NCBI RefSeq assembly: GCF_017873415.1
Contig: NZ_JAGGKD010000019.1
Coordinates: 1-37,597 of the forward strand
Reading direction: 5' to 3'
Origin: Methanolobus bombayensis
Lineage (GTDB): Archaea; Halobacteriota; Methanosarcinia; Methanosarcinales; Methanosarcinaceae
DNA: 37,597 nt
Positions 19,757 to 24,182 of the stretch are shown in pieces. Positions within the stretch are counted from its first letter, which is position 1, and each line of letters begins with the position of its first letter. Position numbers and translations under genes: made by a program. The notes below the pieces were generated by a model, which was not told where the DNA came from, did no database searches, and saw only the letters and a program-made list of their open reading frames with translations.

Positions 19757-20803
19757 TCACTGTTTTTTAGGTACATATATACAGTATGGCTCTTCTTCCA
19801 GATAGTCGCCTGTGGCAGCATAAGCACGCGCACGGCAGCCTCCGCATACTGTGTTATATTCGCATCTTCCGCATTTTCCCTTGAGTTTGGAAACATCACG
19901 CAGGTCGTTGAATACTTTTGAGTTCTCCCAGATATCCTTAAAACTCTGCTCTTTTATGTTTCCTGCAAGTGCGGGAAGATATCCGCAGGGGAAAACGTCT
20001 CCTGTGCTTGATACAAAGCAAAAACCAGTTCCTCCCAGACATCCTTTTGTCATTGCTTCGTAGCCATGGGTGTTGACACTTATCTCAATACCTTCTTTTT
20101 CTGCACGCTGGCGCATTATCCTGAAATAGTGTGGTGCACAGGTAGCTTTGAGCTGAATGCCTGCATCCTTCTGCCTGTCATAGAACCAGTTGAGTATCCT
20201 TTCATATTCCACAGGTGGAATCTCATCGTTTTCAAGTTCTTTACCTCTGCCTGTTGGTACAAGAAGGAAAATATGGAGTGCATCTGCATCCAGTTCCTTT
20301 GCCATTTCAAGTATGCCGGGTATTTCATCAATGGTGCGTTTTGTGATGGTTGGGTTGATTTGGAATCCAATACCTGCATCTTTTAGATTCTCTATGCCTT
20401 TTATGGCACCATCAAATGCTCCGGGCATGCAGCGGAAGTCGTCGTGTGTCTGAGAATTTGCCCCATCAAGGCTGATGCTCACTCTCTGGATGCCCACGCT
20501 TTTTATTTTGTCTGCCATTTCAGGTGTAACGAGTGTACCGTTGGTTGCCATGGCAACACGTAGTCCTTTTTCTGTGGCATACTTGGCTATTTCGAATATA
20601 TCATCCCTCACCAGCGGCTCCCCGCCACTAAGTATGAGTATCGGGTTACCCATTTCCCTGATCTCATCCACGAAATGGAGTGCTTCTTCGGTTGTTAGTT
20701 CGCCTTCAGGTTTTTTCTCAGTGGATGAACCTCTGCAATGTTTGCATGAAAGATTACATCCTGCTGTTGTTTCCCAGGCAATGAGTCTTGGAGGTCTTAC
20801 CAT
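19757..20803 (-). CDS. ahbD: Radical SAM heme synthase AhbD
   Basis: Last enzyme of the siroheme-dependent heme pathway: oxidative decarboxylation of two propionates of Fe-coproporphyrin III to vinyls of heme b. The 348 residues start PPRLIAWETT and carry the radical SAM cysteines at 16, 20 and 23 (CNLSCKHC), GGEP, and a C-terminal SPASM-like set (CLGGTGFC..., CGRCEYNTVCGGCRARAY, and a last Cys before the end) for an auxiliary cluster. AhbC would start with a different N-terminus (no ISKLYCG-like block here), so AhbD is the better call; this also agrees with the placement next to ahbAB that I recall for Methanosarcina. First gene of the leftward run. Confidence 0.88.
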   Translation of the reverse strand: MVRPPRLIAWETTAGCNLSCKHCRGSSTEKKPEGELTTEEALHFVDEIREMGNPILILSGGEPLVRDDIFEIAKYATEKGLRVAMATNGTLVTPEMADKIKSVGIQRVSISLDGANSQTHDDFRCMPGAFDGAIKGIENLKDAGIGFQINPTITKRTIDEIPGILEMAKELDADALHIFLLVPTGRGKELENDEIPPVEYERILNWFYDRQKDAGIQLKATCAPHYFRIMRQRAEKEGIEISVNTHGYEAMTKGCLGGTGFCFVSSTGDVFPCGYLPALAGNIKEQSFKDIWENSKVFNDLRDVSKLKGKCGRCEYNTVCGGCRARAYAATGDYLEEEPYCIYVPKKQ

Positions 20804-20915: not shown

Positions 20916-20924
20916 TGTATAAAT
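20916..20924 (+). promoter_or_regulatory. TATA-like element for the ccmDE operon
   Basis: TGTATAAAT sits about 93 bases upstream of the ccmD frame, giving a predicted leader of roughly 65 bases. The leader contains arms GCCTAT (20968-20973) and ATAGGC (20983-20988), which reuse the CCTAT/ATAGG half-sites seen at the ahbD TATA box. Confidence 0.35.
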
Positions 20925-21008
20925 TGGCTCATTTGTGTCTGATTATTGCTAGAGGGTTCGTCTTAATGCCTATGACGGACAAATAGGCTGATATAGAGGT
21001 GATTCTTT

Positions 21009-21125
21009 ATAGGCGCGTTAGATATTGCATTTGCAATTACATGGATTACATTACTGGCGTATGTTGCATACGTTGTAAGTTCCCGCAGAAGGCTGATGCG
21101 CCAATGTAACAGGATAGAAAAATAA
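21009..21125 (+). CDS. ccmD: CcmD-like small heme-exporter subunit, apparent ATA start
   Basis: An open frame of 38 codons reads GALDIAFAITWITLLAYV then AYVVSSRRRLMRQC to TAA. One short helix with an aromatic-rich start followed by a cluster of arginines is the CcmD pattern, and the next gene is ccmE. CcmD joins CcmABC in releasing heme-loaded CcmE. There is no ATG, GTG or TTG before the helix: the frame opens after TGA at 21000. GAGGTGAT at 20996-21003 is an excellent ribosome site and points to an ATA at 21009 as start. Either ATA is used or a base differs in the assembly. Too short for most gene finders. Confidence 0.68.
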   Translation: MGALDIAFAITWITLLAYVAYVVSSRRRLMRQCNRIEK

Positions 21126-21158
21126 TCCTGATATTCGATCATTGTAGAGGTGCTTCCT

Positions 21159-21539
21159 ATGGATAAAACACAAAAAACGATACTTGCAGTTGCTTTCATT
21201 GCTGTTGTTGCTTTTGTAGGTCTCTGGAATGTTGACCTTTCACAGGGATATTATATGATATCTGAGCTTTCCCAGAACTCTGAGAAGTTCATAGGGCATG
21301 ATGTCAACACAATGGGTATGATCAAGAATGGTACTCTTGATATTTCTACAGATGGCACTTCTTTTGCACTTCAGGATCTTGAAGAACCTTCTTATGCGAT
21401 TAAGGTGGAATATACCGGTTCTCTCCCGGCCAACCTTGTGGAAGGGCAAAGTGTTAGCATAAGTGGAAAAATGCTTTCTCCAACTATGGTTGAGGCAAGT
21501 CAGATAGTTATGAGCTGTCCTTCTAAATATTCAGAGTAA
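21159..21539 (+). CDS. ccmE: Cytochrome c maturation heme chaperone CcmE, CxxxY type
   Basis: Membrane-anchored periplasm-side heme chaperone. From the ATG at 21159 it has 126 residues: N-terminal helix (7-23), an OB-fold beta barrel (VNTMGMIKNGTL, SFALQD, VSISGKM) and C-terminal CPSKY at 120-124. Bacterial CcmE carries HxxxY with a covalent heme histidine; archaeal and some sulfate-reducer proteins carry CxxxY, as here. An in-frame GTG at 21150 is part of the GAGGTG ribosome site. It follows ccmD and leads into the prenyl synthase gene 12 bases later. Other ccm genes (A, B, C, F) are not in the window. Confidence 0.88.
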   Translation: MDKTQKTILAVAFIAVVAFVGLWNVDLSQGYYMISELSQNSEKFIGHDVNTMGMIKNGTLDISTDGTSFALQDLEEPSYAIKVEYTGSLPANLVEGQSVSISGKMLSPTMVEASQIVMSCPSKYSE

Positions 21540-21551
21540 GCAGGCGTAGTT

Positions 21552-22421
21552 ATGATACAAATAGAAGATCTGGATGAATATCAGCTAATCAAGATGGCCA
21601 AGGATGATATGGTCCAGTCTATGGATGATAGTTCACAGATGAAAAAGATGCTTCTGCATATATGCAGTTCCGGCGGAAAGAATATTCGCCCTGTTATGCT
21701 TATATTATGTACTGAGATGTGCGGGGGAAATTCTACGGAAGGTGTCAAGGCGGCACTTGCAATTGAATTCATCCATTCAGCATCCCTTATTCATGATGAC
21801 GTTCTTGATGGTGGTCTTGTACGTCGCGGTGTTGAGTCAGCACACAAGAAATATGGAATTCCTGCAGCGATACTTTGTGGTGATTTTCTGATCTCCAAGG
21901 CAATATCTCTTATTTCGGGTTACGGTAACAATGCAGTAAATGAATTCGGCAGGGCCGGGATGTATATGGCTGAAGGTGAAACCATAGACATTTCAAGTGT
22001 TGATGATGAATTCAGGGAAAAGAACTATTTCGAGTGCATTACTAAGAAAACAGGTTCTCTTTTTGCAGCCAGCGCTTCAATAGGTGCATATGTTGCAGGT
22101 GTGGATTCCGGAACTGCTAAAAATTTACGGTATTTCGGTGAAAATGTGGGCAATGCATATCAAATAGTTGATGATTTGCTTGAGTATCTTAACGAGCTTG
22201 AAGATAAAAGATCTACTTATGAATCTGTTACATTACCTCTTATCTACAGAAGGTCCATGGGTCATGATAAGGCTGTGGAGAAGACTGTAGAACAGGTTCT
22301 TCAATGCGTCAAAAATGCAAAAGATATCCTTGCTTCTTTCCCTTCTTCTGATGCAAGGGATAAACTGGAGTTAATAACTGATCTTATTACAGTGGATATG
22401 CTTCCTGCAGATGTTCTTTAA
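21552..22421 (+). CDS. Polyprenyl diphosphate synthase
   Basis: All-trans prenyltransferase of 289 residues. First Asp-rich motif HDDVLDGGLVRRG at 81-93 (D82, D83, D86) is intact; the second, QIVDDLLEY at 205-212, has Glu in place of the final Asp. Five residues before the first motif lies Ala77, with Ser78 beside it, small residues as in enzymes that make products longer than C20. In Methanosarcina a C25 geranylfarnesyl diphosphate synthase was proposed to supply the methanophenazine side chain; the location after ccmDE makes that role attractive here, but it is inference. The alternative is GGPP synthesis for archaeal lipids. Operon with the radical SAM gene downstream. Confidence 0.87.
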   Translation: MIQIEDLDEYQLIKMAKDDMVQSMDDSSQMKKMLLHICSSGGKNIRPVMLILCTEMCGGNSTEGVKAALAIEFIHSASLIHDDVLDGGLVRRGVESAHKKYGIPAAILCGDFLISKAISLISGYGNNAVNEFGRAGMYMAEGETIDISSVDDEFREKNYFECITKKTGSLFAASASIGAYVAGVDSGTAKNLRYFGENVGNAYQIVDDLLEYLNELEDKRSTYESVTLPLIYRRSMGHDKAVEKTVEQVLQCVKNAKDILASFPSSDARDKLELITDLITVDMLPADVL

Positions 22422-22446
22422 TTTTATTCAATTACCAGGTGACTTC

Positions 22447-23637
22447 ATGAGGGTTTATGATAAATCAGTAATTAAAGTGAATGCCAGTACTGAAAACGGA
22501 AGAGTGGTCCTTGATACAGAAGGGCCGTTATCTACTGTTGCAAAACCTATTATAAAGCGTATAAATAAGATCTTCCTTGAGGAGAAACCCATATACTCAG
22601 ATGAGGAAAATATAATATTCTCTACATGGGCTCCTCCGATGCCAGGTGATATTTTTAAAAGGCTGATCAGTGCGCAGGTAGCTTCTATTTTAAAGAAAAG
22701 AATACCTGATCAGTTCTCTATAGGTATTACAACACATTGTCCATATGATTGCATACACTGTGGTGCAGCAGGTACTGTAGCAGATCCGATTCTCTCCTTT
22801 GATGAGATTAATGGTGCTATTGAACAATCTATTGATCTGGGTTCTTATTATATAGCTTTCGATGGCGGAGAAACCCTGCTTAGAAAAGACCTTGAGCAAA
22901 TGGTGGCGAAGGTAGACAAAACACGTGCGATTGCTACTTGTTTCACATCGGGTTTTGGTCTTACTGAACAAAGGGCAAAGGATCTCAAAAATGCAGGCCT
23001 TTTTGCTGCACATATGAGTCTTGACAGTCCGGAAGAGGCGGAACATGATCGGGTCAGGGGACGTGACGGTGCTTTCCAGAACACTGTTAACGGTATAAAA
23101 CATGTGGTTAATGCAGATATTCTTGCGGATCTTTTCGTGGTCATCTCTCCTCATAATATTGATGACCTGGATGGTTTCTACAATTTCGCAGCAGATATGG
23201 GTATGCAGGAAATGTCTATTTATGAGATTATAGCTGTTGGTCGCTGGATGGATCATGAGGATGAAGTAATAACTTCCAAAGATGTTGATAGGCTTGGAAA
23301 ATTCCAGAAATCAATGAACAACAAAGAGGATGGTCCCAGAGTAACTTCATTCCCGAATTTCATGGGTCCTGATGAGTTTGGATGCTTTGCAGGGAGAAGG
23401 TGGATGCATACAACAGCAGGTGGGGACGTTCTGCCCTGTGCCTATACACCGCTTTCATTTGGCAACATCCGTGAGGAAGAACTTGCTGATATATGGGAAA
23501 GAATGGGTAAACATGAGGCTTATAGTTGCTCTGCAGAGTACTGTATGATGCGCAACCCTGAGTTCAGGGATAAATATATCCGCACTATCTCGGAAGGAAC
23601 GCAGCTTCCGGTGAGACTAGATAAAGATATTCATTAA
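22447..23637 (+). CDS. Radical SAM protein of unknown substrate, SPASM-like C-terminus
   Basis: From the ATG at 22447 (AGGTGAC site) the protein has 396 residues. A 90-residue N-terminal region with no known relative precedes the radical SAM core: CPYDCIHC with Cys 98, 102, 105, then FDGGETLLR in place of the GGEP motif. The C-terminal part has FGCFAGRRWMHTTAGGDVLPCAYTPLSFGNI and a late CSAEYCMM, suggesting at least one auxiliary Fe-S cluster. It is not AhbC as far as I can judge (N-terminus differs). The gene begins about 25 bases after the prenyl synthase stop, so they are co-transcribed. A step in methanophenazine or other membrane carrier synthesis, or in heme/cytochrome modification, is possible. 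Confidence 0.85.
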   Translation: MRVYDKSVIKVNASTENGRVVLDTEGPLSTVAKPIIKRINKIFLEEKPIYSDEENIIFSTWAPPMPGDIFKRLISAQVASILKKRIPDQFSIGITTHCPYDCIHCGAAGTVADPILSFDEINGAIEQSIDLGSYYIAFDGGETLLRKDLEQMVAKVDKTRAIATCFTSGFGLTEQRAKDLKNAGLFAAHMSLDSPEEAEHDRVRGRDGAFQNTVNGIKHVVNADILADLFVVISPHNIDDLDGFYNFAADMGMQEMSIYEIIAVGRWMDHEDEVITSKDVDRLGKFQKSMNNKEDGPRVTSFPNFMGPDEFGCFAGRRWMHTTAGGDVLPCAYTPLSFGNIREEELADIWERMGKHEAYSCSAEYCMMRNPEFRDKYIRTISEGTQLPVRLDKDIH

Positions 23638-23790: not shown

Positions 23791-23855
23791 TGAGTTAGCA
23801 GTAGGAGATGTTGATTTATTCGGGATAATTAGCAATTCATCACATGAGGATTAGC

Positions 23856-24174
23856 ATGGCCAAAGAAAAAATCTTGTCGGAAATCAAAGAGGCAGAAGAC
23901 AATGCACGCAAAATGGTTGACGACGGTAATAAAAGAAAGAACGACCGTATCGCCAGTGCACGTGCCGAGGCCAGGGAAATCATTAAACAGGCCGAAGTCG
24001 ATGCACAGAAATCTGCACAGAGTGCAATGAAATCTGCAGAAGAGTCTATCGCTTCAGATAAATCAAAGGTCATCGAGAATGGAGAAAGCGAAGCAAAATC
24101 CATTGCAAGTTCTGCTTCTTCTAAGATCGATGAAGCTGTTGAATTAATTGTTAACGAATTCGAGAGGGCAATAC

Positions 24175-24182
<8 letters not shown>
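23856..24182 (+). CDS. ahaH: A1Ao ATP synthase subunit H
   Basis: Peripheral-stalk coiled-coil subunit that pairs with subunit E. From the ATG at 23856 it has 108 residues, nearly all charged helix with Ala-rich heptads ([17 protein letters not shown]). An ATG at 23844 adds four residues but GAGGAT fits 23856 better. First gene of the operon; its last eight bases overlap ahaI. Confidence 0.9.

Follow-up and report, generated by a model that had tools for sequence, protein, structure and literature searches.

A candidate gene set for methanophenazine biosynthesis

Three paralogous radical S-adenosylmethionine (SAM) proteins, here designated A, B and C, probably belong to the biosynthetic pathway of methanophenazine, which carries electrons in the membranes of Methanosarcinales methanogens, and act on the head group or in its attachment. 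Participation of the family in this pathway at any step is somewhat more secure, and we consider it likely. The gene for A lies in a stretch of 37,597 nucleotides from Methanolobus bombayensis (contig NZ_JAGGKD010000019.1; the whole stretch is referred to as the window), next to a gene for a polyprenyl diphosphate synthase. The basis for this reading is the linkage of the genes, the existence of three orthologous clades, the co-occurrence of the genes as a set, and the separation of this set from menaquinone genes.

The biosynthesis of methanophenazine was called not known in 2015 (PMC4683180), 2018 (PMC6315138) and 2021 (PMC8546582), and the 2015 paper adds that genomes could therefore not be mined for it. 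Transcript levels have been taken to indicate that homologues of UbiA, UbiD, UbiB and UbiE may take part (PMC6315138), UbiX-UbiD with an aconitase-like gene has been raised as a possibility (PMC5852551), and a PhzF domain is present in only some methanophenazine methanogens, with a role called unclear (PMC5244752). We found no tie of radical SAM enzymes to methanophenazine synthesis in the literature covered, in which subscription journals and preprints were only slightly represented, so that an unseen report is possible.

Paralogues and conserved gene linkage

The initial annotation of the window had described the radical SAM enzyme as an orphan, but the source genome holds two paralogues outside the view of that annotation, B (42% identical to A) and C (35%). 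B is the third gene of a group that starts with a UbiA prenyltransferase (PF01040, 150 bits; below, UbiA) and continues with a geranylgeranyl-reductase-like flavoprotein (below, the reductase), the last two genes touching each other. C lies elsewhere, beside a gene that we take to be KaiC-like. A tree of 82 rows resolved the members from the class into three orthologous clades (support 100/96 for A, 100/100 for B and 100/99 for C), with AhbD and a fourth type, D (PTO1314-like), outside them. This tree includes one 77-residue fragment, and long branches were flagged for the D of locus L109, for L096 and for others. The L096 row (L096:6800-8011) comes from genome G150 of genome family f7, which has A, B and C and in addition this C-like copy, which contains GGDP and sits on a long branch. 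Another unusual copy, the C of genome G136 (L121:6001-7227), is a pseudo-radical-SAM protein: its frame is open over the full length, but both CxxxCxxC and the tail cysteines are gone.

To describe the linkage we denote the genome families f1, f2 and so on, where f1 is of the Methanosarcinaceae type, f5 is of the Methanoperedens type, f6 includes a genome recorded as Methanothrix harundinacea (G157), and f3 includes a metagenome-assembled genome (MAG) recorded as ANME-2c, a group of anaerobic methanotrophic archaea (ANME) (G016). We compared 63 A loci, that of the window included. The initial annotation had raised the question whether A stays beside the prenyl synthase, and it does so, with both genes in the same orientation, at 58 of the 63, which is more than chance would give. 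A ccmE gene was near A in 43 of these loci (41 of 42 in f1, one of them a weak match of 36 bits, and both in f2). The arrangement of B is likewise conserved within f1, where the reductase adjoins it in all 20 loci and UbiA accompanies it in 19; in the remaining B locus (L230 of genome G143) UbiA was not found in the roughly 1.5 kilobases upstream of the reductase. UbiA and the reductase also adjoin each other in three f2 genomes. In G093, a member of f5 recorded as Candidatus Methanoperedenaceae UBA10536, UbiA, the reductase and B are consecutive, with B as best match at 412 bits. The initial annotation had linked A to the membrane electron chain by neighbourhood only. This has been superseded, because the adjacency of A and the synthase is conserved, the family is separated from menaquinone genes, and B is located in an operon with UbiA and the reductase.

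The synthase beside A carries the sequence S-A-S-L-I-H-D-D-V-L-D at its first Asp motif, with Ala at −5 and Ser at −4 as initially annotated. Its best NCBIfam model, among 17 listed, is NF040627, the model for the M. mazei geranylfarnesyl diphosphate synthase MM_0789, and it matches PDB entry 3ipi with an E-value of 4.5e-86. NF040627 was also the best model for all six synthases beside A that we scored from relatives (f1, f5 and f6). The likeness is limited by the curated cut-off of 600 bits, which all seven synthases missed (339.6 bits in the window, 220.7 to 527 bits in the relatives). A C25 diphosphate product has been reported for MM_0789 (PMC3017947), of which MA0606 is given as a homologue (PMC8546582). 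In the synthase gene of genome G136 (L085:6148-7029), codon 129 is an in-frame TAG flanked on either side by homologous sequence; this TAG may be either a pyrrolysine codon or the mark of a pseudogene.

Distribution of the family relative to menaquinone genes

The presence of the family was scored at E 1e-40 in a set of genomes from the order and at E 1e-35 in sets from the class and the phylum, with PF02621 (MqnA/MqnD) as the marker for menaquinone genes. In the class set the family was found in 138 of 149 genomes and PF02621 in 12, of which 11 had strong matches (7.5e-58 or better) and one a weak match (G141, 7.8e-6). The 11 genomes with strong MqnA/MqnD matches are exactly the 11 genomes that lack the family. 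In the order set (109 of 149 genomes with the family, and exactly three copies in 75 of 75 f1 genomes) PF02621 was present in 39 genomes, and none of the 38 with strong matches (2.5e-56 or better) contained the family. Two genomes of this set had neither, one of them (G023) being 61% complete. The source genome (G000) gave no match to PF02621 and thus shows no futalosine pathway by this marker. In the phylum set, where PF02621 was present in 90 of 294 genomes, the family was scored in 69; one of these matches (G241) is AhbD-like and was dropped as spurious, and 67 of the remaining 68 bearers were without PF02621. The family co-occurs with expected methanophenazine users and is absent from bearers of menaquinone genes, with G275 of the phylum set as the exception. 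We did not observe, as such, a wide occurrence of the family among methanogens that lack cytochromes: at E 1e-35 it was absent from 225 of the 294 phylum genomes, although these genomes were not scored for cytochromes; lineages recorded as Methanocellales do carry it.

The genomes of f4 and f5 are without the family, except G093, which combines A, B, C, the synthase, UbiA and the reductase and has no PF02621 match. It is the sole f5 genome examined that has the set, and it carries a fourth, poorly matching copy on another contig. The futalosine pathway has been reported for all 16 Methanoperedenaceae MAGs except the most basal one (PMC7327174), HdrDE and menaquinone:cytochrome c oxidoreductases have been reported for this family (PMC9012536, PMC7327174), and methanophenazine was not detected in a Methanoperedens enrichment (PMC4683180). 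ANME-2a, 2b, 2c and ANME-3 have been inferred to use methanophenazine (PMC9012536).

For the co-occurrence of the set we selected 30 genomes, of which 20 contain the family (15 from the class and 5 distant ones) and 10 do not. Strong reductase matches (8.4e-58 or better) were present in all 20 bearers and in none of the 10 others, where the best value was 1.1e-36. Strong UbiA matches (2.5e-96 or better) were present in 14 of the 15 bearers from the class and in none of the 10 non-bearers (best 2.5e-16); the genome of the one class bearer without such a match is 73% complete and contains a fragment. PF02665, considered as a marker for HdrE and present in 96 of the 294 phylum genomes, was not used since it was weak even in f1 genomes.

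Sequence features and predicted fold of A

A belongs to the radical SAM superfamily, as it contains CxxxCxxC and scores 67 bits against PF04055 (cut-off 29.5). The CxxxCxxC motif is present in 67 of 68 A, B and C rows, the exception being the C of G136. A also matches the SPASM domain (PF13186, 35.3 bits, cut-off 21.5). Despite this match it is not a full SPASM protein, which would have a tail of seven cysteines for two auxiliary clusters: all 11 aligned A rows have three tail cysteines, a pattern that fits 62 of the 68 A, B and C rows. MoaA has one auxiliary cluster with a free site and acts on a small-molecule substrate, and by analogy the tail of A suggests a single auxiliary cluster with a free site. 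The GGET in place of GGEP that was initially noted in A is indeed present; it occurs in four of the five aligned A rows of the Methanosarcinaceae type (f1), while the remaining A rows have GGEP.

The best NCBIfam matches of A are to the heme-type models AhbD (TIGR04545, 117.4 bits) and NirJ2 (TIGR04055, 113.2 bits), neither of which reaches the cut-off of 500; A stays far under the cut-offs of the models for heme and pyrroloquinoline quinone (PQQ), and no Mqn model is among its best 25 matches listed. Although the best matches of A are thus among the AhbD, AhbC and NirJ heme enzymes, A misses their cut-offs of 500 to 650, sits in a separate clade of the tree, and is absent where menaquinone genes occur.

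The predicted structure of A has a mean predicted local distance difference test (pLDDT) score of 84.5 and a predicted template modelling score of 0.89, and the N-terminus of about 90 residues forms a block with pLDDT values of 83-92. The nearest solved fold is that of SkfB (Z 24.9, root-mean-square deviation (rmsd) 3.4, 288 aligned residues, 21% identity), followed by PqqE (Z 23.1, rmsd 2.9, 259 aligned residues, 19% identity) and then by viperins, BlsE, SuiB and MoaA. A has the radical SAM core with CxxxCxxC in common with these SPASM- or twitch-type enzymes, but differs from them in its three conserved tail cysteines, in its own N-terminus, and in that A is always accompanied by B and C in f1 class genomes.

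Related clusters in distant archaea

Outside the class, the family occurs in records that include Methanosarcinales archaeon Met33H, several Methanocellales archaea, UBA148 and Candidatus Methanohalarchaeum thermophilum. In eight of the ten distant genomes fetched (all those from f12, f18 and f22), three family members and the reductase are encoded in one locus. The other two are from f16: in G222 the family members and the reductase are split over two groups, and in G213 one group was covered. A soluble protein resembling periplasmic binding proteins (PBP-like; PF09084) and a UbiA-like membrane protein are encoded in seven of the eight single loci, the contig of the eighth being cut, and in both f16 genomes. 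Six distant genomes encode D and a seventh has a fragment of it at the end of the stretch; it was not seen in G243 and G261. The distant C copies group with the C clade of the class (100/94), whereas the other two distant copies make up a separate clade (100/100). Because of this placement, A and B may have arisen separately in the distant lineages.

The distant membrane protein has no Pfam match. A prenyltransferase model of NCBIfam gave 0.0049 for one of the two proteins scanned and nothing for the other, and a profile comparison with the UbiA of the class gave an E-value of 0.0026 and a probability of 11.6. The name UbiA-like is therefore tentative and is based on Asp-rich motifs in matching places. 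The PBP-like protein was considered as a shared pathway enzyme and rejected: in a search of 42 genomes, 40 had matches at E 1e-5, but only nine were strong (6.7e-135 or better, the next value being 3.1e-26), and all nine are genomes with distant clusters. Its predicted structure is poor (mean pLDDT 56), and by sequence it is THI5/SsuA-like, THI5 being its best solved relative (6.6e-14). By analogy with MqnA and MqnD, which are enzymes, the PBP-like protein could likewise be catalytic. This protein (L042:16373-17254) and its orthologues are without an obvious export start and are kept in the nine distant cluster genomes tested.

Two further records deserve mention. A contig of 9.9 kilobases recorded as Candidatus Bathyarchaeota (L126, DAOWHM010000117.1) encodes three family members, D, the reductase, the UbiA-like protein and the PBP-like protein; where compared, these genes are 66-76% identical to the Met33H versions, which may reflect a transfer or a mislabelled bin. 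In genome G329 a lone distant family member (L100:6708-9295) lies beside a gene for a B12-binding radical SAM protein, and no other copy was found.

Proposed route and points against it

On this basis we tentatively propose a first gene set for methanophenazine biosynthesis, apart from the bacterial phz genes. The three radical SAM paralogues would build the head, the C25 synthase, the UbiA-type enzyme and the reductase would supply, attach and finish the tail, and archaeal lineages would have swapped this set in its entirety for the menaquinone pathway, only rarely having both. The prenyl synthase beside A would make a C25 chain, as reported for its M. mazei homologue. Starting from a small aromatic precursor, A, B and C would assemble or alter the phenazine head, and the UbiA-type enzyme would couple the chain to this head. 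Finally, the geranylgeranyl-reductase-like flavoprotein would saturate the first isoprene unit, the natural chain of methanophenazine being a 2,3-dihydropentaprenyl group. Since synthesis, attachment and reduction of the tail are all covered by known enzyme types, we infer that the radical SAM enzymes account for the phenazine head and its oxygen, an assignment to head-group assembly that is possible rather than probable.

In the futalosine pathway, radical SAM enzymes make the redox head group, which a UbiA-type enzyme then prenylates. The A/B/C set would resemble this pathway in its general plan and fills the same niche as MqnA, MqnC, MqnD and MqnE, without overlap in the class and order sets. 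It differs in that A has no Mqn model among its best 25 matches listed, and in the likeness of the PBP-like protein of distant loci to THI5 and SsuA. The likeness to the bacterial phz pathway is that a related ring would be made. If the proposal is correct, A, B, C, UbiA and the reductase would serve as markers that allow carrier use to be read from genomes. The set also names genes that can be deleted in tractable Methanosarcina, and it suggests a route to phenazines by radical SAM chemistry.

Several findings weigh against this proposal. Its support comes from genomic comparison, in which independent evolutionary switches are few, and Fisher tests of the family against PF02621 (7e-17 in the class, 2e-33 in the order) overstate the association because the genomes are related. 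Linkage is also looser in some families: A is apart from the synthase in the loci from f2 (2/2), f3 (2/2) and f7 (1/1), and none of the 12 B loci outside f1 (three from f2, four each from f3 and f6, one from f7) has an adjacent reductase and only that from f7 has UbiA, so that B is separated from UbiA and the reductase in f2, f3 and f6. The C of G136 is without CxxxCxxC, though the A and B of this genome retain theirs. Individual genomes depart from the pattern as well. G329 has a single family member, and G275 has MqnA/MqnD plus a single B copy that branches within the f3 part of the B clade. On the stretch that bears this copy only the B gene matched other loci (74.5% to G016), and contamination is a possible source. 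The distant clusters fit less well than those of the class, as none of the five distant genomes had a strong match to class-type UbiA, having the tentative UbiA-like protein only, and as D and the PBP-like protein are without a clear orthologue in the class. Moreover, Met12, a Methanocellales archaeon, has been described as lacking Hdr and Fpo (PMC11176372), and its kin may therefore not use methanophenazine.

Alternative explanations

It is unlikely that the family acts on another lipid or cofactor that accompanies methanophenazine users, be it a feature of respiration of the HdrDE/Fpo type or a prenyl lipid in modified form. The linkage, which is to prenyl-lipid genes in general, would agree with this explanation, as would the presence of the family in Methanocellales-type lineages; within this order, Met12 at least is said to lack Hdr and Fpo (PMC11176372). 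The separation from menaquinone genes, which is exact in the class and, save for the two genomes with neither, in the order, nevertheless points to the carrier itself.

The initial annotation had put forward an unknown step of either methanophenazine synthesis or heme modification for A. The first half is considerably strengthened by the adjacency to the prenyl synthase, the separation from menaquinone genes and the operon of B with UbiA and the reductase. A role of the paralogues in heme modification or cytochrome maturation is improbable and was rejected as the leading explanation, as it fails on distribution. An ahbD gene is divergent from the window locus, from seven of the 12 further f1 loci whose flank is long enough and from the locus of G093, and among NCBIfam models A comes closest to radical SAM enzymes of the heme type, yet with scores far under the cut-off. 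The family is missing from f4 and f5, although HdrDE and cytochrome c oxidoreductases are reported for Methanoperedenaceae (PMC9012536, PMC7327174). In the 15 A loci of f6 the prenyl synthase is retained, but neither ccmE nor a divergent ahbD was found, and the distant clusters carry UbiA-like and reductase genes.

We consider it very improbable that phylogenetic inertia explains the pattern, the family having been lost from f4 and f5 for unrelated reasons. These are two family-rank groups and hence represent few independent events, but G093, a member of f5, has the set and no PF02621 match, genes for prenyl carriers are linked to the set, and PF02621 is absent from all but one of the non-spurious bearers in the phylum. 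Hardly tenable is the idea that A is a mere passenger of the ATP synthase and heme locus, which was prompted by ahaH homologues beside A in 42 of 42 f1 loci (0 of 21 others) and by the closeness of the heme cluster, the geranylfarnesyl diphosphate synthase gene and the ATP synthase already noted in Methanohalophilus mahii (PMC3017947), and which we rejected as largely refuted by the 16 of 16 f5 and f6 loci that keep the synthase-A pair with no ATP synthase genes found nearby.

Annotation of the window locus

The genes from ccmD to A run in one direction, as initially annotated, with spacers of 12 bases between ccmE and the prenyl synthase gene and of 25 bases between the latter and A. The flanks, which the initial annotation did not mention, consist of divergent ahb heme genes on one side (from 20803) and of the genes for an A-type ATP synthase on the other (from 23844); the name ahaH and the other ATP synthase gene names are presumed.

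Features of the window locus and its immediate neighbours
Feature	Position	Strand	Basis and remarks
ahbD, heme b synthase	19757..20803	−	TIGR04545 596.8 bits (cut-off 500); divergent neighbour outside the proposed set
ccmD-like small membrane protein, 38 residues	21009..21125	+	Apparent ATA start; named from place and character, without a family model
ccmE, heme chaperone of cytochrome c maturation	21159..21539	+	PF03100 54.3 bits (cut-off 24.6)
Polyprenyl diphosphate synthase, geranylfarnesyl (C25) type by best model	21552..22421	+	PF00348 178.4 bits; NF040627; PDB 3ipi
Radical SAM protein A, shortened three-Cys SPASM-like tail	22447..23637	+	PF04055, PF13186, Cys pattern
ahaH-like first gene of the A-type ATP synthase operon	23844..24182	+	Open reading frame and gene order; neighbour outside the proposed set

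For A, the start at 22447 was preferred over that at 22411 because it fits the N-terminus conserved in the alignment of A. CcmE passes the threshold of PF03100, while its scores against the CcmE equivalogs of NCBIfam are under the cut-off; it ends in CPSKY, a CxxxY form that is presumably the archaeal variant. The ccmD gene of the initial annotation is real, but the start given there, 20916, precedes its frame. In relatives from the genus this frame is likewise without an ATG, GTG or TTG start and has ATA or ATT about six bases after a conserved GAGGTGA-like site, and in several other genera ccmD starts with ATG.

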